From assembly GCF_032854445.1 (NCBI RefSeq), contig NC_088295.1, positions 72,508,028-72,572,027 of the forward strand: DNA of 64,000 nucleotides, written 5' to 3'. Position numbers and translations under genes: made by a program. Below are positions 3,237 through 48,880 of the stretch, piece by piece (the stretch's first letter is position 1; each line of letters starts with the position of its first letter). The notes below the pieces were generated by a model, which worked only from the letters and a program-made list of their open reading frames with translations, made no database searches and had not been told where the DNA came from. The stretch comes from Liolophura sinensis. Lineage: Eukaryota > Mollusca > Polyplacophora > Chitonida > Chitonidae.

Positions 3237-3465
3237 GCCATGTTGTTACAATGAGAGATGGAGCAATATTGCTTTGTTGAAATACGTAACATTTCTGTTT
3301 TTGTTTCCGTATACGAAGACCAGATAGTGGCCCTGTTGTAACAGTGGGAGAAGGAGCTTTATTATTGAGTTTAAACACTTAACAGATCTCTTTCTGTTGA
3401 CATAGGGAGGAATTAGCTATATTATTGCATTGAAATACGTAACAGTTTTGTTTCTGTTTGATTAG
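3237..3465 (+). pseudogene. Two decayed duplicates of the exon-3 edge of the STAND-ankyrin gene
   Basis: The first coding bases of exon 3, GCCCTGTTGTTACAATGGGA at 3477, recur as GCCATGTTGTTACAATGAGA at 3237 and GCCCTGTTGTAACAGTGGGA at 3330, each followed by similar AT-rich text containing a GAAATACGTAACA-like motif. In copy 2 the frame corresponding to ALLLQWEKE has a TAA stop. They are best read as local tandem duplications of the intron-exon border that are no longer usable. Confidence 0.65.
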
Positions 3466-18377: not shown

Positions 18378-19885
18378 TACTAATGGAAAAAAGTAATTGT
18401 GCATCACAGGAAATGGGACAAAACAAAAGATGTTTGAAAAGTTATAAACCTAACCGTCAATAAATATTTAGCCAAGCATTTTTCATGAAATGTCATGTCA
18501 CGTATCGCGCGTGGCACGTGCACTTCGTGTATAATGACATGACTCACATTCTGCATGATGTTTGACACATGAAGTTCACACACCTGATTTCGAAAATTGA
18601 AGAACTGTTGATTATTCTTTAGCCTCTAAATGTTGTGGAAAACACGTTAACTTCAACATCAACTGTACGTACAACATGCCACGGCTTACAGAAAATCAGC
18701 GTCTCCGCGCCGTGGGTATGCTGGAGACTGGAATGGCCCAGAATGAAGTTGCCAGACATTTTGGTGTCCATCGAAACACGATATCCTCTCTATGGCGACG
18801 TTTTCAACAGAATGGGAACACGAGAGATTTGCCCCGGTCCGGCCGTCCACGTGTGACGTCACGTCAGCAAGACAACCATATTCGGCTGACCCATCTAAGG
18901 AATCGATTCCAGAGTTCCAGTTTGACTGCTCGGACCATTCCTGGCTTACGCCCAATCAGCTCTAGGACTGTACGGAACCGACTGCGGGAGCGCAACATCC
19001 GACCCAGACGTCCTGCCATACGTTCGATTTTGCTCCAACATCACTGACAGGCACGTCTTGTCGAGCAGACAACATCTACGGTACAGGAGACAAAATTGGG
19101 ATGGTGTTCTGTTCACTGACGAGTCGAGATTTCATCTGGACGGCTCAGATGGCAGGGCAAGGGTGAGCAGACGTCCTAGTGAACAGTATGCTGACGCGTG
19201 CGTTGTTCAACGTCGAGCGTTTGGTGGCGGCAGCGTTATGGTATGGGGAGGCATCACATCTCATGGGCGGACCCAACTTGTCATTGTGAATGGCAATCTG
19301 ACAGGCCTGCGATACAGGGGCGAGATCATTCTGCCTCATGTGCAAGCGTTCATTCAAGGACATGGACGTAACATCACACTTCAGCAAGATAATGCCCGTC
19401 CACATGTCGCTCGTGTTGTGACGGATTTCTTGAGACAGCACAACATCCCGGTACTCCCTTGGCCAGCAGTTTCTCCTGACCTGTCCCCTATCGAGCACGG
19501 ATGGGATGAAATAAAACGGCGATTACGTCAGGGCCCGAATCAGCCATTGACGTTAGCTGATTTGGGACAAATGTTGCTTCAGACATGGAACAACATTCCC
19601 CAAGCTTTCTTCACTCTCTTAGTGTCGTCTATGCGTCGTCGTTGTCAAGCCCGCATCAACGCCAATGGTGGATACACACGATATTGAGTTTGTGAACTGA
19701 CTTTTGACACCACATCTCTTCGAATGCGTGCCATGATGCCTAGTGTCAAATCATAAAGATTTCGAGATTATCCTGTCAACAGTTAAACAGTGATTAAACA
19801 GAATACCAAATATCATATTCTTATCTTAATTCATTAGAACATGGCATAACTGCAGATGATGCACAGTTACTTTTTTCCAGTACTA
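18378..19885 (+). mobile_element. Tc1/mariner transposon, 1508 bp, TA target duplication
   Basis: Terminal inverted repeats of about 28 bp share the core TGGAAAAAAGTAA(T/C)TGTGCATCA; the left one starts at 18378 and the right one ends at 19885, with TA flanks at 18376-18377 and 19886-19887. The interior holds a Tc1-type transposase broken by one frameshift. The length and TIR design fit a once-autonomous Tc1 copy. Confidence 0.9.
18676..19687 (+). pseudogene. Tc1/mariner transposase, DD34E, frameshifted
   Basis: The first frame (18676-19047, 123 residues) begins MPRLTENQRLRAVGM and has the paired-type helix-turn-helix DNA-binding region (NEVARHFGVHRNTISSLWRRF, then the GRP linker RSGRPRV). 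The second frame (19058-19687) holds the catalytic core: first Asp in LFTDESRF, second Asp in QQDNARPH and Glu in SPIEHGWDEI, with exactly 34 residues between the second Asp and the Glu, i.e. DD34E. The two parts are in different frames, with a TGA at 19045-19047, so a 1-base indel just before it has broken the gene while leaving all three catalytic residues. The normal product cuts and pastes the element at TA sites; this copy is probably inactive but recent enough that both halves are otherwise open. Confidence 0.92.
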
Positions 19886-30157: not shown

Positions 30158-30751
30158 TTATACGTCTTTGAAACAACCGAATGGTGTGTGCAACGTGGAG
30201 ACTGTGTTTTGGCTCATTATCAGGGTTAATACTTTGCATGGAAAACTAAAGCCATAAAGGTGCTCAGGCGATAATGACTTGTGATGTTGTAATTGGCTTT
30301 CGAAGTGAGCCGCAGACAATCCTGCCTTCTTTGGTATACACCTACCGCTGATCTTGGATTCTGACAGGTATGATTTTAGCCTATCACCGCTGTCCGACTT
30401 GCCCATCCAAAACCTGTTCTCCCATCCGTTTGGGCGTTTTCCGCGTACACCGTAGAAGCTGAAGGAATCCAACCGTTTATGCCCCCCTCGGTACACGGGC
30501 GGAAGCCGGGTGATTTCGGGGTAAAGCCGCTGTAAAATCGGGTAATCATTGTCATAATAAAACAGTCTGGAAAGATCGGCGAGAGAGCGTCGCCCACGGG
30601 CACTGTGAAATCCTACTGGCCCACTATCCCCAGGGAGCTGCTTCTTTCCGCGAACAGGAAAGAACGTCTGCCCATCGAACCGTTTAGAGGCCATGTTTAA
30701 CACATTCTGTAGTAAGTCGTCGTCTTCGTATGTATAGACCGGCCTTTCAAT
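30158..30751 (-). CDS. Tachykinin-like neuropeptide precursor, peptide-bearing exon
   Basis: On the minus strand a T-rich acceptor TTTTGTTACAG|ATTGAA opens an exon in phase 0. With the signal-peptide exon at 48441-48578 the precursor numbers as follows: KR-FDGQTFFPVR-GKK at 69-83, QLPGDSGPVGFHSAR-GRR at 84-101 and KR-LDSFSFYGVR-GKR at 138-152. Each peptide is cut out at dibasic sites and has a Gly for C-terminal amidation. FFPVR-amide and FYGVR-amide fit the invertebrate tachykinin pattern F-x-x-V/A-R-amide; the middle one, with N-terminal Gln that could cyclise, ends FHSAR-amide. A spacer (102-137) has monobasic sites only. A further GK site follows WENRFWM at 156-164. The frame runs to a TAA at 30158, giving 243 residues, but a donor-like GCG|GTAGGT at about 30346 could end the exon earlier and lead to more 3' exons. 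Secreted; presumed ligand of a G-protein-coupled tachykinin receptor (family knowledge). Confidence 0.85.
   Translation of the reverse strand: MERPVYTYEDDDLLQNVLNMASKRFDGQTFFPVRGKKQLPGDSGPVGFHSARGRRSLADLSRLFYYDNDYPILQRLYPEITRLPPVYRGGHKRLDSFSFYGVRGKRPNGWENRFWMGKSDSGDRLKSYLSESKISGRCIPKKAGLSAAHFESQLQHHKSLSPEHLYGFSFPCKVLTLIMSQNTVSTLHTPFGCFKDV
30346..30346 (-). other. Possible splice donor inside the neuropeptide exon
   Basis: Minus-strand ATCAGCG|GTAGGTGT places a donor with GT at 30345-30344; a second possibility, GTAG|GTGTAT, lies 4 bp on. The coding text after this point loses precursor character (no more dibasic or amidation sites), so splicing here is plausible but unproven. Confidence 0.35.
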
Positions 30752-31404
30752 CTGTAACAAAATTACCTAAAATTACTTCAGAAGAAAAAGGGCTTTTTTG
30801 TCCACTATGGACCACAAACAGACAAACTTTGTTTCGTAATTCTTTCTTTTTTTAAATAAAACTCGATGATATCAAATTCCCAAAGCTACAGGCTTTCTAT
30901 ATGGAAAGTCAAGACGTGATGTACAAGAGAAAAGCCACTGCAAAGTTATCGTATGTCAATCATCGAATTGTCCGCTGTAACTGGTAATCAGTTGTATTCG
31001 CCTTTTCGCCCTTCCCTCACGCCCACTCACGTTATGCTTTTTTTCTCCCGGGAAAAGAGTCTTTGATATCCCACCCATGGCAAGTGTTACTGTCGCTACT
31101 TCGATCCGTCGTACAGTAAACATGTTAAGTAAGTAGATGGACAAATAACGTATGTGGAGTGACCACTTACAGAATACACTTTACTAAGTGCGCGATTCAC
31201 GTCCATAGAACAGGACAGATCCTGGTTAAGGGCCTTACACACACCAAGTGCACCAGTGCCTTACCAAACCGTGTTCTGTTAGCGAATTAACACAAAGCTG
31301 GTTGTCGTGGATCATTCAGGAGGAATCTTTACTCTGGTAATTCCCAGTGTGATGATGTTTAAAGTACCTCCCATTAAAGAACCCAGGATCAGTGTGTACA
31401 GAAA

Positions 31405-31490
31405 CATTTATTTATTTGATTTATTCATTTGATTAGTGTTTTACATTTATACGACGGCGGTCAGGATCATGGTGCGAGGAAACGAGAAAC
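31405..31490 (-). mobile_element. RUDI/V-SINE-like SINE, worn 3' fragment
   Basis: TTCATTTGATTAGTGTTTTA, then TTTATACGACGGCGGTCAGG and ATGGTGCGAGGAAAC: the reverse complement of the SINE 3' end, with an internal deletion of the GCCGTACTCAAG segment. Confidence 0.8.
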
Positions 31491-31604
31491 ATTTTGTGTA
31501 GTATAAATAAAAAATAAAGATACTTTGTGCAGGGTCACCAAAAAAAACGGTATTAAACTCTTCACAAGATGGACCAAAGTTTGTAGATACAAAATGAATT
31601 CTGC

Positions 31605-31905
31605 TGGTGGAGTATGAGGCCTGGTCTCTTTGCATAGTTTTAATGTTATTTAATGTATATTAAATGTGATGACAACACAGCATTTTTAGTAATTTTAATA
31701 ACATCACTGCATTTTTTTCACGTAATACTATTTAAGCCATGGTGTTAGTGGGCGTGTAATTTGCTACTAAGCATTTGTATGAACAAAACCCTGACGGGTA
31801 AATTGACACGTAATGCATCGGTTACGTGTGGCGATTTGCCAGCTTTCACACTGTCGTCGCGGCTCTGGTTTTGCTCTCTATGCCGTCCGTCTAATTATAT
31901 TGTAA
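31605..31905 (+). repeat. Dispersed repeat D, copy 4 (near complete)
   Basis: TCTGCTGGTGGAGTATGAGG, CTTTGCATAGTTTTAATG, GATGACAACACAGCATTTTT, AAGCCATGGTGTTAGTGGGC, GCCAGCTTTCACACTGTCGT and TTTGCTCTCTATGCCGTCCG, in family order. Inside the presumed neuropeptide-gene intron. Confidence 0.85.
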
Positions 31906-33340
31906 GATTATAATTCTAAGGGCCAGATACACACATGTATGTCCATCTCCAAAATAATATCAGTCCCATTACAGACGGAGTTCAACAAAAATAATGCCAA
32001 CTTCATATGAAAATCTAGTTCGCTACAAAAGAAAGAATATTCAGCTCGTTTCTTAACTTTCGTGTGAAATGAACACTAATATAGGATTCTGCGTATCATA
32101 TTACTGATACAACTAAATGAAGAAAAAAAGTAGACACTATAAATTCAAGCTCGGTGACAATAAACGTAAACAAAAGAGTCTGGATCAGACGGAGCACTGC
32201 GGGCAATAGCAACATGACTCCGCATGGAGCACATAGTTCTATGACAACACCATCAGCTTTAATAATGTATTGTGTAAAACAGAGCGCTTTTTGGGGATAT
32301 AAAACACAATAATTTAACTAAAAAGATAAAAAAAAAATTGAGTCAACAAATCAACGAGAGGCACGAAGCAAGTCGAGTGCACCAAGTGAGCGAGTTCACG
32401 CCTATCGTTTGTGATCACGGTGTTCATCACACACAGATATGGATGCACCAGTATCGAAACAAATAGGCCCTGAATTAACCCCCTTGTTACACGACAGCGA
32501 CCACGTAACGCAACATTAGTTTTTGAGGCGTCAAAACACGAGCCTCGTCTATTACAGCAGGCATGCAGTGTAGTGGTGACAAATATTTTATAGGCATCAG
32601 AATGTAATAAAACATATCACCCTTTGAGAGTCTCAGAAACGTTGAGCGATCGTAAATGAAGTCGATGTTTTCAGCTTAAGAGTTCGAAGAGGTTGTATTT
32701 AATTAGGGCTAGGATTTAAAATTACCCCCGAATGGATAAAAAGATACATAACGTTCATTCTGGACTTTTTAAATAAGTTTACAAAATTAAATTATTTCTC
32801 AAGGCTCGGTCATCAACTAGTTTATTAAGTTGAAAACTTGCCACTGGCCATTTTCTGAGGTTCCACCTAACCAGACCTTACTCCTAAATAGGAGAGCGAC
32901 CTCAAGGGAGGTAATTCGGCTCGACCCTATTGCAAGGGCTCCTAGGCGTTCTGGGTTTTCAGAAGAGAAAACTTCTAACATAACTGGAGTAATTAAATCG
33001 TTCATTAAATGCAACAAAAATCATCAAGAAGACATGGCATGCATTCACTTGTTGGTATATCGCTAAGGTCATTTACAAATTTACACATTTACAAAGTCTT
33101 TTTTGGATTAGAATCAAGTGAGGTGGAAATTTGTTCTCTGATCTCAACGGACGCAACCAATCATGGTACATTTAGTTAAGAGGTTATAGCCTCCACTCCT
33201 ATTTCTATTCTTAGCTCGGTGATGATTTGAAGTCTTGTGCACATTTTCACACGAATTTCAACATAGGTAAAGCTCAGCCTAATGTCAACATTCTGTGAGT
33301 AATTGGAGCGCCATGTCTGCTCATTGTCTCTGACATGGTA
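31906..33340. other. Intron of the neuropeptide gene, nothing recognised
   Basis: Includes a GC-richer stretch at 32830-33015 that is open on both strands (plus: RRATSREVIRLDPIARAPRR) without splice or domain support, and A/T-rich remainder. Confidence 0.35.
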
Positions 33341-33341
33341 T

Positions 33342-33386
33342 TCCATTTATTTATTTATTTGATTGGTGTTTTGCGCCGTACTCCAT
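33342..33386 (-). mobile_element. RUDI/V-SINE-like SINE, short 3' fragment
   Basis: CATTTATTTATTTATTTGAT then TGGTGTTTTGCGCCGTACTC: only the terminal ~45 bp of the SINE remains. Confidence 0.8.
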
Positions 33387-33479
33387 TCCACTGAAGCAGC
33401 ATATGAAACATGTCGCCACCAAACGCGGTCTGTTAAGTTGGAGCACCACCGTGATCGAAATAATGTTAAAGTCCACCCT

Positions 33480-33900
33480 TGGCAAGGGAATTGTCGTCGT
33501 CGTTGCTCTGGTTTACTCTCTGTGTTTCAGTCTTTCTGTGGTGCTCTTGCATAAATCAGTATTCTGCTGGCGAACTAGTCCCACATACGTGGTCCATTTG
33601 CATCGTTTTCACGTCACTGTTTAATACCTTGTATATGTGATGACAACACAACATTCAGAGTAATTCCAGATAGGTGATGATTTTTTACACCAAATTCTGT
33701 TCAAGCAATTGTGCCTGGGGGTGGGGGGAGTGGGGGGGGGGCGTTTGATTTTCTGCAATCTAAGTATTTACTTCAACAGTTAGAATTAAACCCTGACTGA
33801 GATAAATTGACAAGATTGACAAATTTCGCCGTTTACGTGTGACCATTTATCGACTATCACATTATCTCATATACTCTCTATGCTGTAGACTCTTATGTCG
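33480..33900 (+). repeat. Dispersed repeat D, copy 5, with an extra 3'-end segment in front
   Basis: GTCGTCGTCGTTGCTCTGGT and TTACTCTCTGTGTTTCAGTC at 33490-33530 is the end of one unit; a nearly full unit follows from CAGTATTCTGCTGGCGAACT to ATACTCTCTATGCTGTAGAC at about 33890. Includes a G-rich run at 33717-33742. Confidence 0.8.
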
Positions 33901-36440
33901 TATGACGGAAGCAGAGTTACAAATAGGCTAAAAAACAGAAATGTCTGTGAAAAGAAATAAGATCACAGTTTCTTACTGGGTATCTTTTTGCCCCATTAAA
34001 TTGATCGTTTCTGGCCTTTTTTTCTCGCTTATTCAGTTTTGGGCTCCTATCCAATTAATGATATAATGCATAAAAGAAAGGAAATATTGAATCTGCTGAG
34101 CGGCTAAAGCTTCCGATGGCGATTTTTTATTGTTGACGAAAGCTGCTATTTTCTCCAGGCATCTTTTACATAAATACTATATAAACAATCAGGAACAAAT
34201 TCATATTCAATCTAATTAATACCTCTGCCTCTGGCCTTGGGAAGATAATAAAAGACGCAGAGAAGGTTAAATTAAGACGTAGCAGACAGAAGAATTGATA
34301 AGGTTTAAGAAGGGCTGCAGGACAGCGATTGCCTCTTAGGATGGCCGAGTGTGAATCCCCAGTTCTCTAGTGTCACTTGTTTTTGCAACGAACTTCAACG
34401 AAAGCGCTAATTTCCTTTATAGTCTCAAACCAACCATTCCCTGAAGGTAGAGGAAAGCGCTTGGCGGAAATCTCCGTCAAATCCCTAGAACAGGTTAGAC
34501 AGTTCGAATTTCTTCGACTTTATAAGACTTTGAAGCTATATCGTTATAGTGAAACCATATCCCAGTTCATTTCAAAACTCAGTCGTACAATACAAGTATA
34601 TTCTCATTATTTAAAGGAATTTCATTTCTCTGGAGAAGAAACACTAGAAGAATACAAATACATATATTATCAAAGCAATTCGCACCAACACAAATCCCAC
34701 GGGCCATAAACAGGCTGACGGATTATAAGCTGTGTTGGAAACAATTCATCCGATGACTATTGTTTCATTTCAATACATGTACGTTGAGAGATAAGGGCGA
34801 ATCGGGGGCAGTATATAACGTGGACAATGGTGCGGTGTCCATTTTGATGCTTCATCATTGCTTTATCAGGAGGCAAATAAGTCTTTGATTAAAAATATAC
34901 CGTCCTTGACGGCGAAAGCCCCGTGTCTGCTTTTACAGTCTAGCTATTATTCCTATAGAACACGGGTCCATTCATAGCGAGCCACCCGGAATAATAATGG
35001 CTAATGTAAGACAATGGCTTAGCTGGCAGCTAGTCGCTCTGGCCGACGGTATGTTTCCACTAATTGATTGTAAGAGGAAGATCTGGTATGTCTACACCTG
35101 TCAATGTCAGTTTGTCTGCTATTAAACCTGTTCAGTCCCGTTGAACCGACAGGTGTCTTTTCTCATATAACATCAATACAACTGTTTCGCGTCCGCGAAA
35201 TCAGAGCTCTTGTATACAAGAGAACTTTTCAAATAAGACGTGATCAAATCATGCCTTCGAGCACAGAAACTTTTGCTTCGTTAGAAATTATCCATATAGA
35301 CTCAGCTTATTCCTATACATATCTGTTGGTATTATAAATTGACAGTACAAAGACACCAGAAACATTAAACATTCCCCAATACCTAAACGACAGTTCATAA
35401 GACCTATACCATGACGTGGCTAATCATTAGGAAGTAAACATGTTGGAACATGAGTGTATCTAGGAATGTCCGGCTTACCTGTGTCTTATTAGTTACAGGT
35501 GTGGCATCAAACGTAAGGTATAAAAATAATCGCCCATGAATTAACTTAATTAAATTTTACCAAAGACGTATTTTTCTATCAGTTCGTCTTAAACACGATA
35601 ATGATCACTGGAATGAAGTATAGTAGCTACTGCATCAAAATCAGAACTAATGGGTGCATACTGGACTCATGATTATATTGTCTATCCTAATCTCAAAGTC
35701 AACCTGATATTTGCGCATCTTTTGTAAACCGTGACAGGACAATAACTGCAAGGCCTGATTCCAAAACAGAATGATCCTGGCTATCTAATGAAAAAACACG
35801 TCTGTCCAAAAGTACAAGGGTCTCTACTGCATGTCTTTGAATATGTAACCGAAAATACATTTTGCAATGGCTTGATTTGAAGGCGTGGTATGATTTCTGT
35901 AAACTGGGCATCATAACAGGTTACTTTCCGTTATGATCAGCCTGGAAATGAGGCGATAACTAAGATATAGTTCTAGAATTTAAAATTTTAGATTATGTAC
36001 ATTTGAACCCTTTAACTTGAAGATCATCTGTACAGGGTATACCTTATATTGTACTTCCTATTGCATTATTCCGCTGTGAAATGCGGTAAAGAAGTAAGAC
36101 ATGTGAAAAGCATGGAGAATATGGATTTCTTTTCCGGTGTATCGACTGTCAGCATAGCTTCAGCCCTGGTCGCTGACTTCTCTCTTATATTAGGCAGAGT
36201 TTGCTTCATTCCATTGTGGGTTACAAGGCTATTATCGGGTTGCTTTAAGAAGTTCTGTGGTTATCGACTAGGATGTTTCCTTCGTCTTAAGACCGAAGGA
36301 TTACAACATTTGAATTCGAATTGAACAGAATTGCCTGTAAAAAGCTACGGTGTTATTCGAGAGAACCTTTTTGTTGGGTAATTTAAATTGCAAATGTATT
36401 AAAATGCACATGGAGGAAGACGAACCCGCAATTAATTTCT
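33901..36440. other. Intron of the neuropeptide gene, nothing recognised
   Basis: Short ORFs (the longest, about 110 codons, at 34377-34709 needs a non-ATG start) show no domain, splice or codon support. No repeat family identified. Confidence 0.4.
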
Positions 36441-36600
36441 CCAGGGGCCCTGGCTGGCTATTTGGAGTCGAGTGCTTGTCTCGCGGAAAGCGACTTGCAC
36501 CTGATCTAGTAGGTCGCGAGTTCGAACCAGCGATCATTTTGTCAGCTGCAACTGTAGAACTATTTATTTGATTGGAGTTTTACGCCGTACTCAAATATAT
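36440..36600 (+). mobile_element. tRNA-like SINE head followed by a reversed RUDI-like tail
   Basis: GAGTCGAGTGCTTGTCTCGC (A-box region) and GGTCGCGAGTTCGAACCAGC (B box GTTCGAACC) look like a SINE head on the plus strand. At 36561 TATTTATTTGATTGGAGTTT and TACGCCGTACTCAAAT is a minus-strand RUDI-like terminus, so two SINE pieces are abutted. No cloverleaf was verified, so this is not called a tRNA gene. Confidence 0.55.
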
Positions 36601-38779
36601 CGGGAAAAAAGCAGGGCTGTAATAGTAAGCGATGAACCAATGCCCACAGTCAGAAGGTTTTTAGAGAGTTGTGATGGGAAGTCAGAAGGTTTGTAGAGAG
36701 TTGTGGCGGGTTACTCCGAGGCTCGGGCACCCATAAACCTGATCCGAATCGAATGAGCGAAATAATTTTAGATACAGGCCGTTCGGCCCCAATCATATAA
36801 ATACATAAATTTCTTTCCCACACGGTCGATCTTTAACCTCGAATATGCCGAACACCAATGGTCAGAGTGAAAATTTACTTTCATTTTACCTAAACCACTT
36901 ATTTACCGTCAGTAAGTTAGTTCATTTTTCATGAAGAAAATGTTGTTTCGTCTGATCGAAATTTTTTTCAGAGAGCTCAGAATACATGTGGCCCCTGCAT
37001 TGCTGTAACCAGGAACGAAATGATTACATCGATACCAATTTGCAAAGAGAGAATGCGGCAAACAGAAATGAGGAGATGGACAGGGAAATGGCTGAGCGAC
37101 GTTTTCCTGAAGGAAATGGATGGGGGTTGAGATGTAAAGTTGCTGGTTATCTGCGACAATGATCAGCGGTGCTCACACTTATATCACGCGATGCCACCGA
37201 TGTGAACGCGTGGGCTAGAACGCCATAATTACGCCGAGTACGAGGTTAATAAACGCTGACGGAGAAAGACTTCCGTTTTGACTGATTTCTAAATGGTTAG
37301 AATTAATAAAAGCTTTTCCCGTCTTTGACTCCGGATGCCAACAGCAATAAACAAAAGAGAGGTTAAGAGATGTCGCTTAGAGATGACCTGCCTGAGATGC
37401 TTGCGTCACATCGGCGTCGACTGAGTACATTATTTACGCCTTCATTTCACAAATATTGCACTTTACATTTCTGACCCGGTTCGGATTCAGCGCTGCGCAG
37501 TAGTTTGCAATTCTTGTTTCTCCATACGTGACAGGAAAGTGATTAGCTGGTTTGTCGTTAATATTTGCCTTATCATTTAAAACTTTCCAAACATCCAAAC
37601 AGAGTTATTATGGCTTAACAAAACTAATACAGAATATCAAGTACTATGACAACGGACATGCCCTCTCCAATTAAGTCAATGTCATATGTGTTAAGTCAAT
37701 TAGACTGTAAAGATATTAACCCGTTTTGGCTTTTATGCTGTCAGCGCTCTTCTATGGCAATACGAATAAACGTGTTTACGATCAGTTTGTATAGATCCAG
37801 TGTAATTAACTGATTCATACTCCGCTATTATATTATAAGACAACAATATTATTCAAGAGCACATAAATGATGATTGCAAAAACAGAAAGAAATTCTTCTA
37901 CAAAACTTGTTAAAGAGTGAAACTGCATAGATACCATTCTTTGGCTCTTGGTCTTAAATGTTCTCGGCATTTATTGATTGTCTTTTTTCATGTAATACAT
38001 GATGGCATCAAGGTCTTAATGACTGAAAAGCATAGCTTGACGAAAATTACTTTTTACTCAGTCCAGATATTGCCATGTGGACAATGTCATGATGAATTCA
38101 ACATTGGCAAGCGAATCCTTCTCTGCAAATCATTTCCTGGTTTCTTTGTTACTATAAGCATCAAAGCAAATTCACGTTGAGCTACAGTCGAATATTAGGA
38201 TAAACCTCTTGGGACACCGCGTGGGAAAGAGATTTAGTATTCTGGACTACTTACGGAGACCTGGTTTCACAGATCTTTGCCCTCTCTATAGATTATCGCT
38301 ATCATTATCACTGCCCAACATATGGTCAGATACGACATTAAGTCGATTACATTCAAATATATGGTGATCTAATCCGTTAGAATAAGTCTGTTAGAATAAT
38401 TTACTCACCTGTTATAACTCAGTAACGATCAATCAAACACGTAAGTACACTAATAGGATTTTTTACTTTTAAATTCAATAATAGTTACCTGAGCAGAGTA
38501 TTTCGAAGCTGACAGGCTTTAAAATAAGTGTTTCCATATCTACTCAATTCTCCTACTCTTTCGCGTCAGAATACTGGAGAAAAATCGTTTTCCCCTCTTT
38601 TCAATCCCAGGAAGATGAACTTATTTCCAGCATATGGCACATAGGCCTAGATTTTAAGCCACAGAATGCCAGTCCATAGTGAATGGTCGTCGTTCTGTAA
38701 GCCGGCAGTTGTTATCCTTCATACATTTAAGCTCCCTCTGTTTTCGCCTAGTAAGAGTTCTAAACTTCAAGTTTTAACG
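36601..38779. other. Intron of the neuropeptide gene; SINE-body relic at about 36700-36790
   Basis: CTCGGGCACCCATAAACCTG at 36722 matches the body of the second SINE family. Elsewhere nothing recognised. Confidence 0.4.
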
Positions 38780-38900
38780 TCACTTTCCACGTTGCCCCAG
38801 TTATATATGTGAACGAAGTGCCCCTGTAGGACGATTGTTCCAATGCCGTAAAGTGTTATTTCATCGAATCACAATTCTGAAGACTCCAGACATGACAGCT
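38780..38900 (+). repeat. Family C-related fragment (worn)
   Basis: TTTTAACGTCACTTTCCACG and CAATGCCGTAAAGTGTTATT resemble the copy at 45030-45215, itself similar to family C. Low similarity. Confidence 0.4.
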
Positions 38901-40940
38901 GGTTCTAAATATGAGGAGATATTAGTGAGTGTTAAAACCCCAAGAGGTGTGGGGCTCTGAAACAATTACGTTATAGACCAAATGATAAGACGAGACAACA
39001 GACTGATCAATAAACTTTGCAATATATTGATTACCTATTAGTTGAATTAGTACATTAAAGTGTTGTTTTCGTGGGTAATGAAATCAGATGTTCGAATCCA
39101 TCTCTTGCTCTTTTGACTACGGCTTTAAGTCAGGGGTTTTAAGTTAAGTCGATCCGAGCTTCACTCCAGGCCCTAATCATACCTTAGACAATCTAGGTAC
39201 AGCCTCACAGCTAATACTACCTACGACCTCTTCGCCCTACTGCGATCTTTTGATCGTTGTCAATCGCGGCCGATTTAAGGCGATTGTAACCCTGGACAAT
39301 GTTTTCCATCACACCTAAACTGACCCAAAGTGACTCTCGCAGGACTATTTATTCGCGCTAAGTCACATGCTTGCATGGAATCAAAGACGGTGTGTGACAC
39401 AAACGTGTGAACATCGTTTGTGACGCTTGTAGACAGCTCGTACGACAAATCCCGACCAATTAAGAGCGGTTATAGTTCTGATTGCGACTGGTTTTGTACA
39501 TGCGACCATTCTGAAAGCCACACGATCGCTAGCAATTTCTTCAGATTCATTAAGATTCGCGAAGATCACTCATGACTTATCGTGCGATTAATCCAAGATT
39601 TATGACAAATACTTGCGATTTCTCTGTCGCAGTTTGCCTTAAATAGTCGAACGTATGGGTGTGACTGGAGGTTAAGAGGGGGAGGGGGAGGGAGAAGCGA
39701 ATATAGTCAAGTATTAATCAGCACAGTGTCAGTATAATGTGAATATGTGCATGAGGTGTCGCGTTTGGTGAGGCAGCGCTATAATAATGTCGACATTAGG
39801 AAAGAACGTCTACATAAAGACATCATCATGAACTGATCTAAATATAGCTGAAAACTACATTAACTACAAATGAACAGGAACAAAATCTTGGTATATATTA
39901 TCAAATTTAGGTAAATATTGGAGTCGTTATTTGTAAATTTCAGTTTGCCTATATCGATGATACCTTCCCAGTTGCAACGGTAACAGTGACATCCATGAGT
40001 AAATCCAAGCTGAATAGGTGAAAATTCAAACACAGTATTCAGACAATCTATATTTAATAGCCCAAATATGTTCACCTGGGAAATCAAAGATAGACGGTGA
40101 AATTTGTTTGGATATTGCTGGGGGGTTATTTGTTTCCTCGGAACTGGCGCCAGTTTTTTGGTATCACGAACTTCAGTCCACATACGTTAAATGATGGATG
40201 AACGAGAATCCCGTTGCCCAGTGGCCATATACATGAATAACGCCTTTTCAGTTTTGCCCTTAGTCCACCATCTGCATTGGCCAAACTTATCTGTTCTGGA
40301 TATGATTCAGGACTGTGGGAAATTTGTGCTTAATCTGTCTTGCTTCCATAGGGAACATCCCTACTCTGTGTGTTTGCTTTGGCTTCAAATCTCACTGCTT
40401 ATTTTCTTGTCTGCAGTAAGTGAAACGGCTGTAAATATTGCATGAGTTTAACGTGAGCAAAAAGGGATGACAACGTACAGTAAACTGTGACAAACGCCGC
40501 CATTGAAACTAATTTCTTGCATATAAATCAAACACTAAGAATAGCTACGTAATGGGCTTTTGAATATTGATGCTTTTCGCTTTAAAATCTAATAGTTGGT
40601 CGGCTACCTCAGCCTTTGGCAAACAGCCGAAATCCCAGAGCTTTCAACAAACAAGATATTCCCGATAACAACATTGTAAATTGGCATTGGAGCATTTGTA
40701 CCCTTTTTGGTAAAATAACACATGCTCAGTGTCGCTGTTCAACCGTGAAGATGGCCATCCGTCCAAAAAAATCACAATTTTGAAATTCGTTTTGAGATGT
40801 AATTTACTCACAGCATGACAAATGACAATTTGACAGAATCTGCACTAAAACGTCTCCTCGGTACATTGCAGTCGTAGATAAGCGACATCTTCGTCATGTG
40901 ACAACTTAACAAAGATCAATGTTATAACAAACAGGAATTT
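38901..40940. other. Intron of the neuropeptide gene, nothing firmly recognised
   Basis: 39200-39640 is GC-richer with repeated GCGATT/CGATCG words and TTTAAGGCG against CGCAGTTTGCCTTAAA at its two ends, possibly an old palindromic element, not proven. Confidence 0.35.
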
Positions 40941-40944
40941 ACGC

Positions 40945-41030
40945 TCGGGGCTCTGTCAGATTTCCTCCCACCGTCACATCAGTGAAATATTCTTGAGTAG
41001 AAGGTAAAACATCAATCAGATAATTAAAGA
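40945..41030 (+). mobile_element. RUDI/V-SINE-like SINE, worn 3' fragment
   Basis: GGGGCTCTGTCAGATTTCCT, CCCACCGTCACATCAGTGAA, ATATTCTTGAGTAGAAGGTA and AAACATCAATCAGATAATTA correspond to the SINE 3' part with a deletion of the GCTGGCCGCC segment. Confidence 0.8.
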
Positions 41031-41524
41031 AGTTACTCAAATAGGAGTTATCATCACCGAGATCTACCACATGCAGACATGGGTTCGACGTGTGGTATAG
41101 CGAATTTTTATAGTCACTGACAGGAATTATCATCCGTGGACAGACATTGTGGACAACCTAAATTATCGCACACATGGGTAAATTATCACAATGGTGTAGT
41201 TTCGAGAACTTCGAGTATTGTCACAAACCAGTATTATAACGAAAAGATAGAAACTATTATCGGTAGACAGAAACTTTCACAGAATTACAAGCCTGGGTTT
41301 TCTCTTACTTGTAGTCTGGTCGCTTTAAATTGTGTTTTGACGGGCCAGAATTATTACAGACAAAAATTATCATGGACTTAGACTTGGGTTATTACACGGT
41401 ACCACGAGCTCGTTATAACACAGACATGAAGGGTAATCGGAAGGCAGGAATTATTACTGACTTCTGTTATTACACGCCTGAGTTATCCCAGACTTGAGGC
41501 CTAACTTGTATTTGCACTGACCAT

Positions 41525-41815
41525 GCAGCATTATTACATGCAAGAATAATTTTTTTACCTAATTCTGTTTAAGCCATGGTGCTAGGGGATTGTTATCGCT
41601 ACCATTTATGCATTTACATGAACAGTAACAATAATTTATTTGACTGATGTTTTATGCCGTACTGAAGAATACCTTGCTTATACGACTGCGGCCAGATGGG
41701 GGGCATAAACCGGAGTTTGACGGTTTGCAAGCGATCACACAATCGTCGCCGCTCTGGTTTTACTTTCTTTGCTATACGTATTTAGTTATATCACGTTGTA
41801 TCAAAAAGTTGTATT
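41525..41815 (+). repeat. Dispersed repeat D, copy 6, interrupted by a SINE
   Basis: TTCTGTTTAAGCCATGGTGC and CATTTACATGAACAGTAACA lie to the left and GCGATCACACAATCGTCGCC and GGTTTTACTTTCTTTGCTAT to the right of a SINE fragment at 41635-41717, so the SINE landed inside the repeat. Confidence 0.8.
41635..41717 (-). mobile_element. RUDI/V-SINE-like SINE fragment nested in repeat D
   Basis: TTATTTGACTGATGTTTTAT, GCCGTACTGAAGAATACCTT and GCTTATACGACTGCGGCCAG: reversed SINE 3' end, diverged. Confidence 0.82.
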
Positions 41816-42201
41816 GTCATTTACCAGGTTAATCCCAGAAGAACAGACATTATCACCAACCAGAGTGGTATTAGAAACTGGTTGACACATACCGGTATGA
41901 GGGGCCAAATTAACATTTAATCGAGAATTATCGATATCGATAAATAAATTATAGATATCGCTAATTTATTTATCGATATAGATAAATAGCCATATTTATC
42001 AATATCAATAAATGAATTAGCGATATCGATAAATGAATTATCGATATCGTTTAATTATTGATCGATATCGATATTTCATTTATCGATATTGATAAATATG
42101 GCTATGTATCGATATCGATAAATCAGGGACATTAGTTGCATGATAATAGTAGCTCCCTTCTAACATGTCGGGGGATTTTGCCGTTGTTTGAATTAGTTCA
42201 A

Positions 42202-42530
42202 ATGGCGGGTGTTTCGGATGTGGACGATGTTTTGCGTGTCCTAAACAACCCAATAACTGGAGTTGAAAGAACACTACAGCAAAATATTGGTAATTTGTAT
42301 TCTTTAAACAATAGATTGTTCCAGGATTCGGAAAACTTGACACGAATAAACTCAGCGTTGTCAACAGACCCTGTTAATTCACTGAACAAGGCACTCTGCG
42401 ATCTTAAGAGGCGAGGTACAGGCCCGTGTACATTTGCGATCTGCACCATTATCATCAAATGTAGGCATCACAGAAACGGTCGGCGTGGAGACGGACTTAC
42501 CTACACCGCGTAGAAGTAATACTAGCAAAG
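42202..42530 (+). pseudogene. Exon-like coding segment inside the TATCGATA transposon (one frameshift)
   Basis: From ATG at 42202 the frame reads MAGVSDVDDVLRVLNNPITG and continues through NKALCDLKRR to about 42412. A 1-base shift near 42408-42416 then opens another frame (EVQARVHLRSAPLSSNVGIT, ending RRSNTSK) up to a good donor AAAG|GTAAGCC at 42530/42531. The composition is protein-like across both parts and the join looks like a single frameshift in a once-continuous first exon of about 110 codons. No family was recognised. It may be the first exon of the element's own lost transposase or a captured host exon. Confidence 0.5.
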
Positions 42531-42592
42531 GTAAGCCAGTCAGCACCATTGCGCCATTATACACATTTCTCAACAAAACTTAACTTTACACT

Positions 42593-42770
42593 CATGCTGG
42601 CTTCCTCTCAGGCCGTATGTGGGAAGGTATACCAGCAACCTGCGGATGGTCGTGGGTTTCCATCGGGCTCGGCCCGGTTTCCTCCCACCATAATGCTGGC
42701 CGCCGTCGTATAAGTGAAATATTCTTGAGTACGGTGTAAAACACCAATCAAATAAATAAATAAATTAAAT
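42593..42770 (+). mobile_element. RUDI/V-SINE-like SINE, 5'-truncated, inside the TATCGATA transposon
   Basis: CATGCTGGCTTCCTCTCAGG, CCTGCGGATGGTCGTGGGTT, ATAATGCTGGCCGCCGTCGT and AACACCAATCAAATAAATAA. Lacks the tRNA head. A further 35-bp tail scrap (GTGAAATAGTCTTGAGCAAA) lies at 42928-42962. Confidence 0.92.
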
Positions 42771-44354
42771 TTACAGGTAAAGTACGTGTAGTCCTTCCGC
42801 TAATATAGTGTAAATTTAACAGTGTCTGGTTTACCAAGCGAAAGAGAAATAAACTAGAAGTGCTTTAGCAGTAGAAAAGAAATTTCTGTTCGTGTAAATG
42901 TGTAATAATCCGTTGGTCGCAAATGTACATGTGAAATAGTCTTGAGCAAATAAATAAATAAATTAACTGGAGTTTGCTGATGAAGCCTTATGGCGAAAAC
43001 GGTTGATCACACAAAGGTAATTTAAATGTAATATATCAATATCAGTTGAATCATAAAAATAAGCCTCTGTTTTATCTGGCGTAACAACGTAGGGTGTAGC
43101 TGTCATTTCCATTGAAACTAAACCGGAAACAATATCGCTAATTCATTTATCGACATCGCTAATTCATTTATCGACATCGCTAATTCATTTATCGATATCG
43201 ATAAATGGCACACAATTATGGATATCGATAAATGATTTATTGTTACCTATAAATGAATAATCGATATCGATAATTGATATCGGTAGTTCATTTATCGATA
43301 TCGATAGATATCTATCGATATCAGTAATTCTTTTATCGATATCAATAAATGAATTAGTGATATGGATAATTCTCGATTAAATGTTAATTTGGTCCCCCAT
43401 ATGCCAGGGTTATTACACATAGAAATTGTCATCAACCTGTGTTATCACGGCCTGGGTTACTCTGCAGTAGTATGCACTTCTATTATGACATACTAGGATT
43501 ATAAGAGACTGATATTCTCATCAACTTGGGTTATCTCAGACCTGAGTTATTAGAGAGTATCAGAAACCTGGTATTGTTAGTGTATTGACCTGATTAAAAA
43601 TCGACCTCAGTTTGTTATCTATATAATAGTGAAATGTCCCCCTATTTATCAGTATTTTGAAAGAAGGGTCATGGTATTCCACCGCCGCGTGGAATAGGCA
43701 TTTCTGTCCAGAATGCTGTTTTGTTCTGATTTTGTTTATTTGAAGCCGTTAAATATTTATTAAGTGCCGATGATAGGTATTAGGTCAAATACGTATTAGG
43801 GTTTTTCAAGACGGAACCACATCGTATGGGGTAAGCAAGCCTTGTAAACATAAAGGAAACAAGCGGAGGAAATATGACTTAGGACGTTATGAGTGTTACT
43901 GATGTAAGTTTGTAACTTACTCAGCAATTATTGCATTTTATGTCCACGTTGTTGAGCAGAGTAGAAACGGCAATCGGAGAAAGGTGTTAGGCAAGGTTAA
44001 GGTTATCAACAACTTAGTATCAAAAAATTAATAATGAACTTTATATAACTAATTAATGTAGTTAACACCCGGTGTATTGTGTCTCGCTATGTTCCTTTTT
44101 TTTCACTCGAAACACGTGGTATTTAATCTTTACTGTAGAGTAGTGTCTATGGGTTAAATATGAACTGAATTTCATAACTCTGTTTGTATATATATTACAG
44201 TAGAACTGATTTACCGCACAACTGTTTCATACCATATCAGTGTTATCTGGATAACAGCTCAGTTGCAACAGACTGTTCGCTGCAATGGGCTTCTGACAGA
44301 AAATCAGGGGCATATAAATCGTGATTTTCAGCCAATTCAAAATTGAATCCGTCT

Positions 44355-44655
44355 CATGTGTTTTATATTAATTGTGATGACAATACAGCATTTTGATTAA
44401 TTCCAGGGAGATCTAATATATTGCAATTAACATCACTATATTTTTCTTTCGTCTAATTCTGCTTATAAGCCATGGGGCTAGGGGCGGTAATTTGCTTCTG
44501 TTTAAGCATTCATATGAACAGTTAGAATAAAATCCTAACCGAGGTCAACTGACAGCGGGCCGTACATCAGAGAGAATGTGCGACATTTTGTCAGCTATCA
44601 CACAGTCGACGCTGCTCTGGTTTAGCTCTGTATGCTGTAAGTCTTTTATACGCGC
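44355..44655 (+). repeat. Dispersed repeat D, copy 7 (near complete)
   Basis: GTGATGACAATACAGCATTT, TAAGCCATGGGGCTAGGGGC, CATATGAACAGTTAGAATAA, CAGCTATCACACAGTCGACG and AGCTCTGTATGCTGTAAGTC, in family order. Confidence 0.85.
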
Positions 44656-45029
44656 GTTGGAATCCATATTGAATTTACCATATATGTATTTCTACGTAAA
44701 CTGACGGTTTGATTTAGATTAACTTGTTTAGGGTAATTTCAGGTGATATAGTCAACAGAGTTAGATTCTTGCTCATTCTTTTCAGTTGCGTTGGTTGAGA
44801 TAAAGTGGAACGGAACATTATAGGCTGAAAACGTTCCAGATCAGTGGCTAATAATGCTGACACTACAACAATCGTGGATTGTTAGTCTGGTACTGACGAT
44901 ATTCGCCTAAAGTATCTTCATCGTGACCCACCAGACCAGTTCCAAAACTTTCAGATCTAAAAACTTGGCGCCAAATACTATTCCTTAGTGTCCATCGACA
45001 ATCACAATATAAATTAAACTTTTGTGTTC

Positions 45030-45215
45030 ATTAGGTTTTGGTTTGGGGTTTAACGTCACTTTCAATATTGCTTTTTCCATACGATTTCAGCGTGCTCTTC
45101 TACAGCAGACCGGTCCTAATGTAGGCATACTGATAGTTCTGCATCACTGAAACGCTATGCCGACATATCCGACTTAACCCCATTCCCTCGACCCTTGTAC
45201 ACACAGTGTACTGAC
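45030..45215 (+). repeat. Family C-related dispersed repeat (worn)
   Basis: GGTTTGGGGTTTAACGTCAC, TGCTCTTCTACAGCAGACCG and TGCATCACTGAAACGCTATG with CCGACATATCCGAC follow the order of family C (promoter-like ACGTC head, CACTGAAG.., ATGCCGA.GAC) and of the copy at 46330. Confidence 0.5.
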
Positions 45216-45479
45216 TCCTATCTAAACAGTGGCTGGTCTTTTTTAATGAAGTGCGTCACAGTGAGTTGAAAAGAGCAGCAGTTTTGAAATCTTAGCTATG
45301 TTTTAATTCTCATAAAAAATAGCTCCAAAAGTACAGTTTTAGAGGTAAATATTGGTCATAAAATGTCACTTGTTGAGGGGAAACTTATATTTTCCACTAG
45401 GATATCATCGTACACTCCAAGCAAACCTCGAAACACTACCAAAATTAATGGAATTTTCAGAATGAGACAAGAGTAGTTT

Positions 45480-45905
45480 TAGGTCAAATACGGTAACTAG
45501 AATCTCCCACAGAGGAAGACGCTGTAACCTATCGGCCAATCCACTTAAATACTCTAACTGGGATCTTCCACTGACGAAGATGCTGTAACCTATCGGCCAA
45601 TCCACTTAAATACTCTAACTGGGATCTTCCACTGAGGAAGACGCTGTAACCTATCGGCCAATCCACTTAAATACTCTAACTGGGATCTTCCACTGAGGAA
45701 GACGCTGTAACCTATCGGCCAATCCACTCAAAATACTCTAACTGGATCTTCCACTGAGGGAAGACGTTGTAACCTATCGGCCAATGCACTCAAATACTCT
45801 AACTGGGATCTTCCACTGAGGAAGGCGCTGTAACCTATAGGCCAATCCACTCAAATACTCTAACTAGGATCTCCCACTGATGAAGACGCTGTAACCTATC
45901 GGTCA
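45480..45905. repeat. 61-bp tandem repeat, about 7 copies
   Basis: Units TACTCTAACTGGGATCTTCC then ACTGAGGAAGACGCTGTAAC and CTATCGGCCAATCCACTTAA repeat at a 61-bp period with few differences between copies, indicating recent amplification. Located in the presumed neuropeptide-gene intron. Confidence 0.95.
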
Positions 45906-46329
45906 ACGTTTGCTCTCACTGCCCTGGTAAAGTGAATAGACCACTGAAACAATAGATTATTTAACAAAATTGACAGTGCGGTCCAGATTGCATGTTTAAA
46001 AGTTTAACGACTGTCAGACTAACAGTGTCTTATAGATCTGCTCGAGGCACCAAAAATAGACAGGTTGAAGACAGGTTCGTCCGTCTCAGCAATATTAACA
46101 ATGATACATTCAGTGACACAACATTCTCTAATGAAATTCGATTGGGTCTGTTACTCGTTGTAAAGCGATCACTAGCTGACAAAATCGTGTCCAGGAGTGT
46201 CGTGAAGATTATCAGTGGTAACGTTTCATCTGTTCTTATTACAAAATCGACGATTTGTTGACAAAGCGGAACAGGTTTTCCAAACGTTTCTCTCTTAGAA
46301 GCATCACGGCAAAGAGTTGAACAGTGTGT

Positions 46330-46560
46330 GAGGTGTTTTATGTTTTCAGTGTCACTATTCCCGTATGTTTTCAGTGTCCTGTTCTAGCAAGTAGGTCCCA
46401 ACACAGACATATTAAGAGTGCTGCCTCACTGAAGCACTGTGCCGAAGACAGCAGACGCAACGCTCCATCCAAGCCAACACAGAATATCGACACCGAAGCA
46501 ATCGGTGCTTACGTGATCTTATTAGTGCGTCAGTTCAGTGAGTGTAAAAGACCACCAGTT
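46330..46560 (+). repeat. Family C-related dispersed repeat
   Basis: CTAGCAAGTAGGTCCCAACA, CTGCCTCACTGAAGCACTGT and GCCGAAGACAGCAGACGCAA are in family C order. The open frame across it is incidental. Confidence 0.5.
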
Positions 46561-46599
46561 TGGTCATGAAACGATGACAAGCACCAAAACGAAACAGAA

Positions 46600-46970
46600 A
46601 AACACACATGCGTAACGGTCCTAACGAAACTCAAGGAATTCAAAACGCGACATCGTCTCTCAAAAGTCGGCTGTGAAGACTTTTGCGCACATGAAGTCGA
46701 TGTCACAAAACGCGACGAAAACTATGAAAACGCGACAATGAGTTTTAAATGTTTTGAAACATGGTATCACGTCTTCGTACGTCGATTTTTGGGGGTTGAG
46801 ACAAGTCGCCCAAACACCACATAATTGGGACCTCAGTGGCTTCATTGACGGTTGTCGCTTTAAGTTAAGATTACTCTGTGCATCTCTGGTTCCCTTATGC
46901 ACTCGTGAACCTGTGCGCGGTCATACAAGTGAAAAATTCATGAGCATAGCTTTAAACACCCACCAAAAAA
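46600..46970 (+). mobile_element. Possible SINE-like repeat with a GTGAAAAATTC-type end
   Basis: The end GTCATACAAGTGAAAAATTC and ATGAGCATAGCTTTAAACAC parallels the 3' ends of SINEs at 29664-30003 and of the RUDI-like family (GTATAAGTGAAATATTCTTG...). The rest of the segment, with several AACGCGAC words, is unfamiliar. Confidence 0.35.
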
Positions 46971-48440
46971 AGCAAACACAAGACTACTCCTTCAAGTCTG
47001 CAAAACATAATATCGACTTCAGAAAAAAAACGTATCTGTATTATATCGCAACCTAAGAAGGAGCTCTGACAAGGTGCCAGATCGCATGTGTAGATTCCGC
47101 TACGTCGTTATAGCATATAGTGGGAAATGGGCCCAGTGATTGCGCATTTTATGGGTTTTGGCTTGAAATGGCTTAAGTGTGGTTGCTAAGTGGAATGCCG
47201 TTGGCTAAAATAATGCTATCAATGGCAAAATAGCCTGTTACGCACTATGATACTCTATCTTTCTGACACAATAAGTCAAATTTGCTGAAATTTAAGTCCC
47301 CGCAGCACTATATCATGTGTCAGTTCTCTTCATAAAGTCACGTGTCACGGGTATTCCGGTGAAACTCATTTGCTCTAACGCTTTGGAAATCTTATAATAA
47401 CTATCATCTAAAGTAAAATATTAGAATAACGTCTCAGGGTCTATTGCTCAAATCTATCGGGTTCCATTTAAGCTCAGGATTTCACCCTTCTTACTTAAAT
47501 AAGGTCTTATTACGTCAACTTGCCGCATTTACGAACAATGGTCATTAAAGCAATACGAAAAACATCATTATAGTTTTCTAGATGAGTTCAAAATCAATCG
47601 TGGGGCGTTAATTAGAATATGGATTTATTACCCAGAGAATCCTCAACGTCCTTTATCGCTGAAAATTAGTGACGGCTTCCCTCTTGTATCACTCTAACAA
47701 CATTATTGAGACCTTCTGTTTGGCCAAACGATTATTTGAGCATTTATTTCAAGTCCTGTTTAAATCTAGGTTTTGCGATAAACGAATAGGGATGGGTTTT
47801 TATCATCACAATGTACCAGTGATATGCGAGTGCTGGATTAAAAAATAAAGATGACAACTTTATTCAAGGTTACAGAACTTCTTCTAGATAGTCCATCATA
47901 TCGCCGTAGCCAAATCCCGTGAAAAATGTTTGGAACCAATGACATCTATACGAAGTGAGAAACGGTCTTGGGTCCATTAGGAGGATAAGTCGTTAATGCG
48001 TGAGTGTAAGGCAGTAACTTCCTGTTCAAGGGTAAATTGGTTTCATGCAGCAGTAAGCATTGTTCTCTTGTATTGCACATGCCCTGTCTACGACTTTCTC
48101 CAACAGAACCATTTCGAAGAGAAATTCACTTGCATATTTTCCAAGATGAAAACATTTAAAACTAACAAGAAACAAAAAATATAAATAAAATAAATTGATT
48201 TACCAATAGATTTAGCCTTGTTGCTTATAGCAGTCGACTATTAATAATTTAAACTTGAACCACATGCTTGTCGGATATTCCAAGCTGTAACCAAAGCGTT
48301 TCCATTAAGTATCTATAAATCCAATTTAACTGGAAAGCATAACGGCGTTTCATTTTCACCCCTTTAAACATTGCTCGTGAAATATTGGAGAGATAATGGT
48401 ACGATGGTCATTGAGCAGTACTTCATAAGAATAAGCTTAC
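46971..48440. other. Intron 1 of the neuropeptide gene, 5' portion; nothing recognised
   Basis: AT-rich text without supported exons. The intron donor is at 48440/48439. Confidence 0.4.
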
Positions 48441-48578
48441 CTCGGATTGCTGGTTATCTTGGGTAGGCGTCCTGAAATTCTGATCATCAAAACTATTGGC
48501 AGAGTCTGTGACACAATGAACGGATTTGAAGATCATCAAAAGTGATATTAAGAGGCACGAATTCCATAGGACTGTCAT
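48441..48578 (-). CDS. Tachykinin-like precursor, exon 1 with signal peptide
   Basis: On the minus strand an ATG (48578-48576) opens 46 codons: a positively spaced, hydrophobic start MTVLWNSCLLISLLMIFKSV with cleavage likely after HC at residues 21-22, then an acidic/polar pro-segment ending DNQQSE. The exon stops at a consensus donor GAG|GTAAGC in phase 0, matching the phase-0 acceptor of the peptide exon at 30751, the next plausible exon on this strand, about 17.7 kb away. The upstream minus-strand TATA box fits a promoter. The link between the two exons is inference from strand, order, phase and protein logic (each supplies what the other lacks); an extra small exon in between is possible. 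The signal peptide directs the precursor to the secretory pathway. Confidence 0.72.
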
Positions 48579-48880
48579 TCTGACGAAGGAAATCAAATAA
48601 AACCAGCACAGCAACTGCTCCCTTTACTCCGAGGCTACTTTTGAAAAAGGAAACACACTCTGGAAGCAAGAACCGCAGATACCCAACGTTTGAACCCGTG
48701 GAAAAAGAGCTTGAAGAAATCACGCTGTGGAGCTGTAGAGCTGTAGATAACACCTTTAAGACAGAGTACCCGTTAGAGTGCAGAGTGTGTATCCAGTTTG
48801 AAACTCTTTAGAGCGGTAGAATACCACTACAGACTGAAAGACGCGGCCGTGGGGATGTCTTGAATAGCAGAGCGCAGGCT
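48579..48880 (-). promoter_or_regulatory. Probable 5' untranslated region of the neuropeptide gene
   Basis: Lies between the predicted start about 30 bp after the TATA box and the ATG. It contains an overlapping open frame (VLSTALQLHS...) with its own upstream ATG-less run, which I regard as incidental. Confidence 0.45.

Follow-up and report, generated by a model that had tools for sequence, protein, structure and literature searches.

The window analysed here, a stretch of 64,000 nucleotides from the chiton Liolophura sinensis (C1:72508028-72572027), very probably holds a tachykinin-type (TKRP) neuropeptide precursor gene on its minus strand, with two coding exons that would be joined by splicing and with three amidated peptides that would be released from the product. 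The gene is most likely one of at least two tachykinin-type genes in this chiton, and it is otherwise ordinary, with slightly unusual endings in two of its three peptides. A first-pass annotation, made from the letters of the window, had proposed that a peptide exon and a distant signal exon form one gene. Both exons were found at the coordinates given there, and their union, with predicted splicing, holds up as the best available model, supported by a second chiton gene of the same plan.

The peptide exon starts with IERPVYTYEDDDLLQNVLNMASKR, continues with FDGQTFFPVR-G, KK, QLPGDSGPVGFHSAR-G and RR, and later reads GGHKR, LDSFSFYGVR-G and KR. It thus carries the multiple dibasic-bounded amidatable paracopies expected of a TKRP precursor, in three copies that each stand before G and two basic residues, as the first-pass annotation had described. 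The features themselves and their excess over chance are directly observed. In six frames of the window and of 20 kb on either side (104 kb in all), [FYW]xxxRG[KR] with a dibasic pair at most 22 residues before it occurs only in this trio, and an additional F...RG[KR][KR] at 34437 on the plus strand is without a dibasic pair nearby. Pairs or triples of [FYW]...RG[KR][KR] within 100 codons were absent from 150 first-order Markov sequences of 64 kb, in which single motifs arise about 0.37 times per sequence, and the open frame (30766-30161, 202 codons) covers 606 bases, a length open in 1 of 10,000 Markov sequences. A search of the PDB sequences with the peptide exon gave a single chance-level match, located in the tail (9jju_A, E 0.63), and a search of the genome with the whole exon, at E up to 10, returned the exon itself and one first-look candidate, with no close copy.

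The tachykinin identity is supported by the peptide endings and by the paralogue described below. When scored against nine published molluscan tachykinins, peptides 2 and 3 exceed all of the other 218 heptamers of the window that end in R-G, their best matches being Aplysia QPHLGFHGSRa and abalone pQPHFGFHGVRa (PMC11365428; PMC9521575), and the nearest match of peptide 1 is oyster FGFAPMR. One of the three endings (FYGVR) has the canonical F-x-G-x-R-amide form; the other two keep F and R with Pro or Ser in the place of Gly, so that FFPVR and FHSAR do depart from the core, as already remarked in the first reading. A molluscan precedent for a position 3 without Gly is given by the F-A-P-M-R and F-T-A-L-R endings of the published oyster tachykinins FGFAPMRa and FRFTALRa, which come from a survey covering Pinctada fucata and Crassostrea gigas and which the available excerpt does not tie to either species (PMC4200219). 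As in the window peptides (Pro in FFPVR, Ser in FHSAR), Gly is replaced there, by Pro or Ala, whereas the remaining sequence is dissimilar. Capitella is the only exception to the ending named in the comparison of PMC11365428 itself. In an alanine scan of an oyster tachykinin, as reported in the accessible part of PMC9521575, F and R alone were critical within the core, and activity of all three chiton peptides is therefore quite plausible.

The precursor of Aplysia californica (165 aa, three exons, with peptides FKPSGFMGSRa and QPHLGFHGSRa; PMC11365428, section 4) shares with the window gene, as modelled, a signal peptide, dibasic sites, amidated F-x-x-x-R endings, linker peptides, more than one exon and a Q-starting peptide that ends in GFHxxR, but it keeps Gly at position 3 and is shorter, in a comparison drawn with its description and not with the full precursor sequence. 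For Haliotis discus hannai, the excerpt of PMC9521575 gives two precursors in one species, TK1 (FGYVGSRa, TELGFGYVGSRa and pQPHFGFHGVRa) and TK2 (GRHFGFVGSRa and KPHFGFHGSRa), with an FHGVRa ending identical to that of the second chiton gene; unlike in the window gene, Gly is kept at position 3 and position 1 varies (Y). All three window endings also fit the looser natalisin pattern F-x-x-x-R-amide, which contains F-x-G-x-R, and FFPVR and FHSAR (two of three) match the former and not the latter as defined in the same excerpt (PMC9521575). Even so, a natalisin-like gene with a receptor of its own, rather than a tachykinin proper, appears very unlikely: natalisins are described from Panarthropoda in the available parts of PMC9521575 and PMC6880623, the likeness lies in how peptides 1 and 2 end and nothing beyond it points to kinship, peptide 3 has the canonical ending, peptide 2 is similar to tachykinins of gastropods, and the oyster tachykinins, as excerpted, are equally relaxed at position 3 (PMC4200219).

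The 46-codon signal exon claimed 17.7 kb upstream, with a GAG / GTAAGC donor in phase 0, was confirmed. Its N-terminus is strongly signal-like by simple hydropathy and the -3/-1 rule, its donor ranks sixth among the 3885 minus-strand GTs, and a strong acceptor 1 nt before its ATG suggests a non-coding 5' exon further upstream. Partners for the peptide exon were scanned by four properties, namely an ATG, a hydrophobic stretch, the cleavage rule and a phase-0 donor. Under the first thresholds, two phase-0 candidates appeared upstream on the minus strand (donor 6.7 for 48578 versus 2.5 for the weaker one), and the plus strand gave none. Relaxing the thresholds, admitting all phases and extending the scan by 20 kb gave five minus-strand candidates, of which three are in phase 0. 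Of the five, 48578 again has the best donor, which makes it the best available phase-0 partner upstream of the peptide exon. The minus-strand frames between the two exons hold no amidation site bounded by dibasic sites, and among the 13 intron minus-strand open reading frames (ORFs) of at least 70 codons, the nine tested did not reach the Pfam cut-off.

The join of 48441 to 30751 is further supported by the same exon plan in a second tachykinin-type gene, C1:82617205-82618227, which lies on the plus strand of the same chromosome, 10 Mb from the window gene, and whose locus was reached by a genome-wide search for F-x-G-x-R-G-K-R. This gene has a 663-nt intron and would encode 119 aa with one peptide, NFPGNIFHGVR-amide, of canonical F-x-G-x-R ending. 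In both genes the last codon of the signal exon encodes Glu (GAG / GT, phase 0), and the peptide exon opens in phase 0 and runs to a stop; a strong acceptor also lies close before the ATG in both, at 1 nt in the window gene and 20 nt in the second, which suggests a non-coding first exon. A local alignment of the window peptide exon with the second gene from residue 23 onward pairs GGHKR-LDSFSFYGVRGKRP of the former with GGAKRNFPGNIFHGVRGKRP of the latter, at a score matched by 2 of 500 shuffles. The two genes thus share exon plan, intron phase, the GAG / GT junction and a GGxKR...FxGVRGKRP block, and the second gene differs in its one peptide, its length, its short intron and its canonical ending. 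Together with the endings and the scores of peptides 2 and 3, this paralogue bears out the tachykinin identity that had been proposed for the window gene.

On the other hand, several observations weigh against this gene model. The acceptor before 30751 opens the exon in phase 0, as first claimed, but it is middling and not good, being equalled by 15.7% of the AGs of the window with a 13-nt tract and by 2.8% with an 8-nt tract. Peptide 1 scores at chance level (12 of the 218 null heptamers do as well), Pfam and NCBIfam give no family for either exon, and codon statistics, trained on one ORF, are weak and of no help in deciding: the score per codon is +0.08 over the first 135 codons of the peptide exon, -0.10 over the signal exon and -0.10 +/- 0.12 in 264 control ORFs. 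The plus-strand control of the relaxed scan gave six rows from five ATGs, one of which, 51994 (phase 1), surpasses 48578 with a donor of 7.12 and a hydropathy of 3.67, and the minus-strand phase-2 candidate 54489 equals it in hydropathy (3.16 vs 3.12); chance therefore does produce such exon-like starts, but seldom ones that combine phase 0 with a good donor. The intron may hide further exons, and the exon join of the second gene is itself a prediction, its 19-kb scan having yielded two phase-0 signal candidates, 82611420 and 82617205, from which the latter was chosen as nearer and higher in hydropathy and donor.

These points bear on the possibility that the peptide exon is tachykinin but has its true signal exon elsewhere, the one at 48578 being part of a different gene. 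The 17.7 kb between the exons, the middling acceptor, the strong signal-like starts on the control strand and the further phase-0 candidates at 54890 (donor 2.5) and 32006 (donor 1.98) would all suit such an arrangement, which we nonetheless regard as quite unlikely, given that the donors of the other phase-0 candidates are far weaker, that the minus strand between the exons offers no other frame with amidation and dibasic sites, and that the second chiton gene shows the same plan.

A different doubt concerns the C-terminal tail, which is made uncertain by a spare donor at 30345. If this donor were used, the last 62 residues would be intronic, the remaining tail would derive from an unseen downstream exon and the gene would have at least three coding exons. 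The donor ranks 40th of the 3885, and three cysteines lie in the last 62 residues, which are without codon signal (-0.02 per codon). Donors this good, however, occur by rank about once per 1.6 kb on the minus strand, controls have a further 62 codons open at a rate of about 2-3% (195 and 297 of 10,000, and 395 of 17,314 real intron starts), and the 104 kb contain no further [FYW]xxxRG[KR] with an upstream dibasic pair. Since the last 62 codons stay open and the peptide exon of the second gene continues to its stop, a terminal exon is favoured and the use of this donor is unlikely.

With the two exons joined as one tachykinin-type gene, we infer its splicing, processing, receptor and function as follows. 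The transcript would begin in an unseen non-coding exon, followed by the signal exon 48578-48441; removal of the 17.7-kb phase-0 intron would leave the peptide exon 30751-30158 as the last, giving a precursor of 243 residues. As in the general pathway of precursor processing, the signal peptide would be removed in neurons, prohormone convertases would cut at KR, KK, RR and KR, carboxypeptidases would clip off the basic residues, and the Gly so exposed would be converted to an amide. The released peptides, FDGQTFFPVRa, (p)QLPGDSGPVGFHSARa and LDSFSFYGVRa, may then act on a tachykinin-type receptor.

The existence of a canonical paralogue, together with two of three endings off consensus, could also indicate a decayed or unexpressed duplicate of the second gene, but the open frame, the intact cleavage and amidation sites and the strong signal exon and donor make this highly improbable. 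As a rather unlikely scenario, the compact gene could have been held canonical while the window gene was freed at position 3, yielding a set of F-x-x-x-R-amides that prefer a receptor of their own, that is, a natalisin-like split reached independently in molluscs. In any case, the two genes add a pair of tachykinin precursors for Polyplacophora, and together they would permit a simple test of how much change at position 3 of F-x-G-x-R is tolerated without loss of receptor activity. Tachykinin is among the neuropeptide families found in molluscs, and systematic neuropeptide studies of Polyplacophora were said to be lacking in 2019, according to the available part of PMC6425005; our literature search found no published chiton tachykinin sequence, although one may already be listed in the class detail of that source.

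Table 1. Features of the window gene and of the second chiton gene (positions in the window unless preceded by C1).
Feature	Position	Strand	Remarks
Strong acceptor AG, 1 nt ahead of ATG	48580..48581	-	exon would begin at 48579
Signal-peptide coding exon, MTVLWNSCLLISLLMIFKSVHC / VTDSANSFDDQNFRTPTQDNQQSE	48441..48578	-	46 codons; in-frame stop upstream at 48626-48624
Likely signal peptide, 22 residues	48513..48578	-	cleavage by simple -3/-1 rule, not SignalP
Donor GT (GAG / GTAAGC)	48439..48440	-	phase 0
Predicted intron	30752..48440	-	17,689 nt; holds repeats
Acceptor AG (ttttgttacag / ATT)	30752..30753	-	phase 0; middling score
Peptide exon	30158..30751	-	197 codons + stop TAA at 30160-30158
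Peptide 1 + amidation Gly, FDGQTFFPVR-G	30647..30679	-	preceded by KR, then KK
Peptide 2 + amidation Gly, QLPGDSGPVGFHSAR-G	30593..30640	-	preceded by KK, then RR
Linker SLADLSRLFYYDNDYPILQRLYPEITRLPPVYRGGH, peptide 2 to peptide 3	30479..30586	-	
Peptide 3 + amidation Gly, LDSFSFYGVR-G	30440..30472	-	preceded by KR, then KR; canonical F-x-G-x-R
C-terminal tail, 91 codons	30161..30433	-	coding status less certain from 30345 on
Alternative donor GT (GCG / GTAGGT)	30344..30345	-	phase 1
Second gene, signal exon MNHSTLFTAIILLNLIAMVRSSPIYAE	C1:82617205-82617285	+	ends GAG / GTATGT, phase 0
Second gene, peptide exon	C1:82617949-82618227	+	phase 0; begins REEEV; REEEVLPEFVPHGFEDLMLRRPGGAKR NFPGNIFHGVR-G KR PYKTTF... 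to stop

Further tachykinins were sought in the whole genome with F-x-G-x-R-G patterns, which cover the canonical forms, as distinct from non-canonical or Y-type peptides, and which also admit Ser for Arg, so that their matches need reading. The form ending in -KR occurs at 39 places versus 36 in the reversed control (36 of the 39 examined with flanks, the other three showing a stop or Ser by eye), that in -KK at 21 versus 20 (12 with Arg and no stop, all read) and that in -RR at 93 versus 120 (nine of the 93 read); with counts at about chance level, these searches are not a census of chiton tachykinins. Among 37 re-read places with Arg and no stop in the motif, a set that excludes the four -KK places read last, four have dibasic pairs both after the motif and at most 22 residues before it: window peptide 3 (202-codon frame), the second gene (109 codons), C5:7909553 (34 codons) and C5:10139113 (49 codons). 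The last two are short frames and probably chance. The one at C5:7909553, RK-SGYVAAAFYGSR-G-KR, is an FYGSR-G frame flanked by AG and GT in matching phase, and could be either a micro-exon of a third tachykinin-like gene or, probably, chance; its 3 kb hold no second dibasic-bounded peptide of this type. In the case of the four -KK places read last, three are without a dibasic pair before the motif in frame, and the fourth, C2:2773648, has one within a repeat. The minus-strand frame around it (C2:2773460-2773860) is tandemly repeated, with units like KKSIYNVIYNSNNDRSNMFGGRGG each closed by KK, and looks like a repeat or a peptide-precursor-like ORF. Scaffolds C165 and C472 carry four copies of a short FHGVRGRR frame, in repeat-like ORFs of 20 to 31 codons without an upstream dibasic pair. 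A composite of the abalone and Aplysia peptides gave six weak matches (best E 0.056), none of them having a frame of at least 60 codons with two G-[KR][KR]. As for the receptor, a crude genome-wide search with a motif of transmembrane segment 6 (TM6) found no place, and a looser, equally crude TM6 motif found 43 places versus 15 in the control. The eight encoding CWxPYH were read, and two of these look by eye like G-protein-coupled receptors; no tachykinin receptor was recognised among the eight.

The predicted intron contains a tandem array of about 61-nt units at 45425-45967 and clusters of ATCGATAT-rich direct and inverted repeats at 41888-43401. A dispersed repeat with a core like GTGTTTTACGCCGTACTCAAGAATATTTCACT, of SINE-like appearance, occurs at 33340, 40968 and 42700, and the same core is present in the introns of both tachykinin genes, directly after the donor in the second. 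Elsewhere in the window, a long plus-strand frame at 3462-6110 encodes, by Pfam, an nSTAND3 NTPase domain and, after it, many ankyrin repeats, a plan that occurs in putative immune receptors. At 18601-19684, also on the plus strand, two overlapping transposase-like frames, with a helix-turn-helix and then DDE_3, look like a frame-broken element, and long TA-rich microsatellites at about 29.3 kb, 55.8-56.0 kb and 60.0-60.3 kb translate as IYIYIY.

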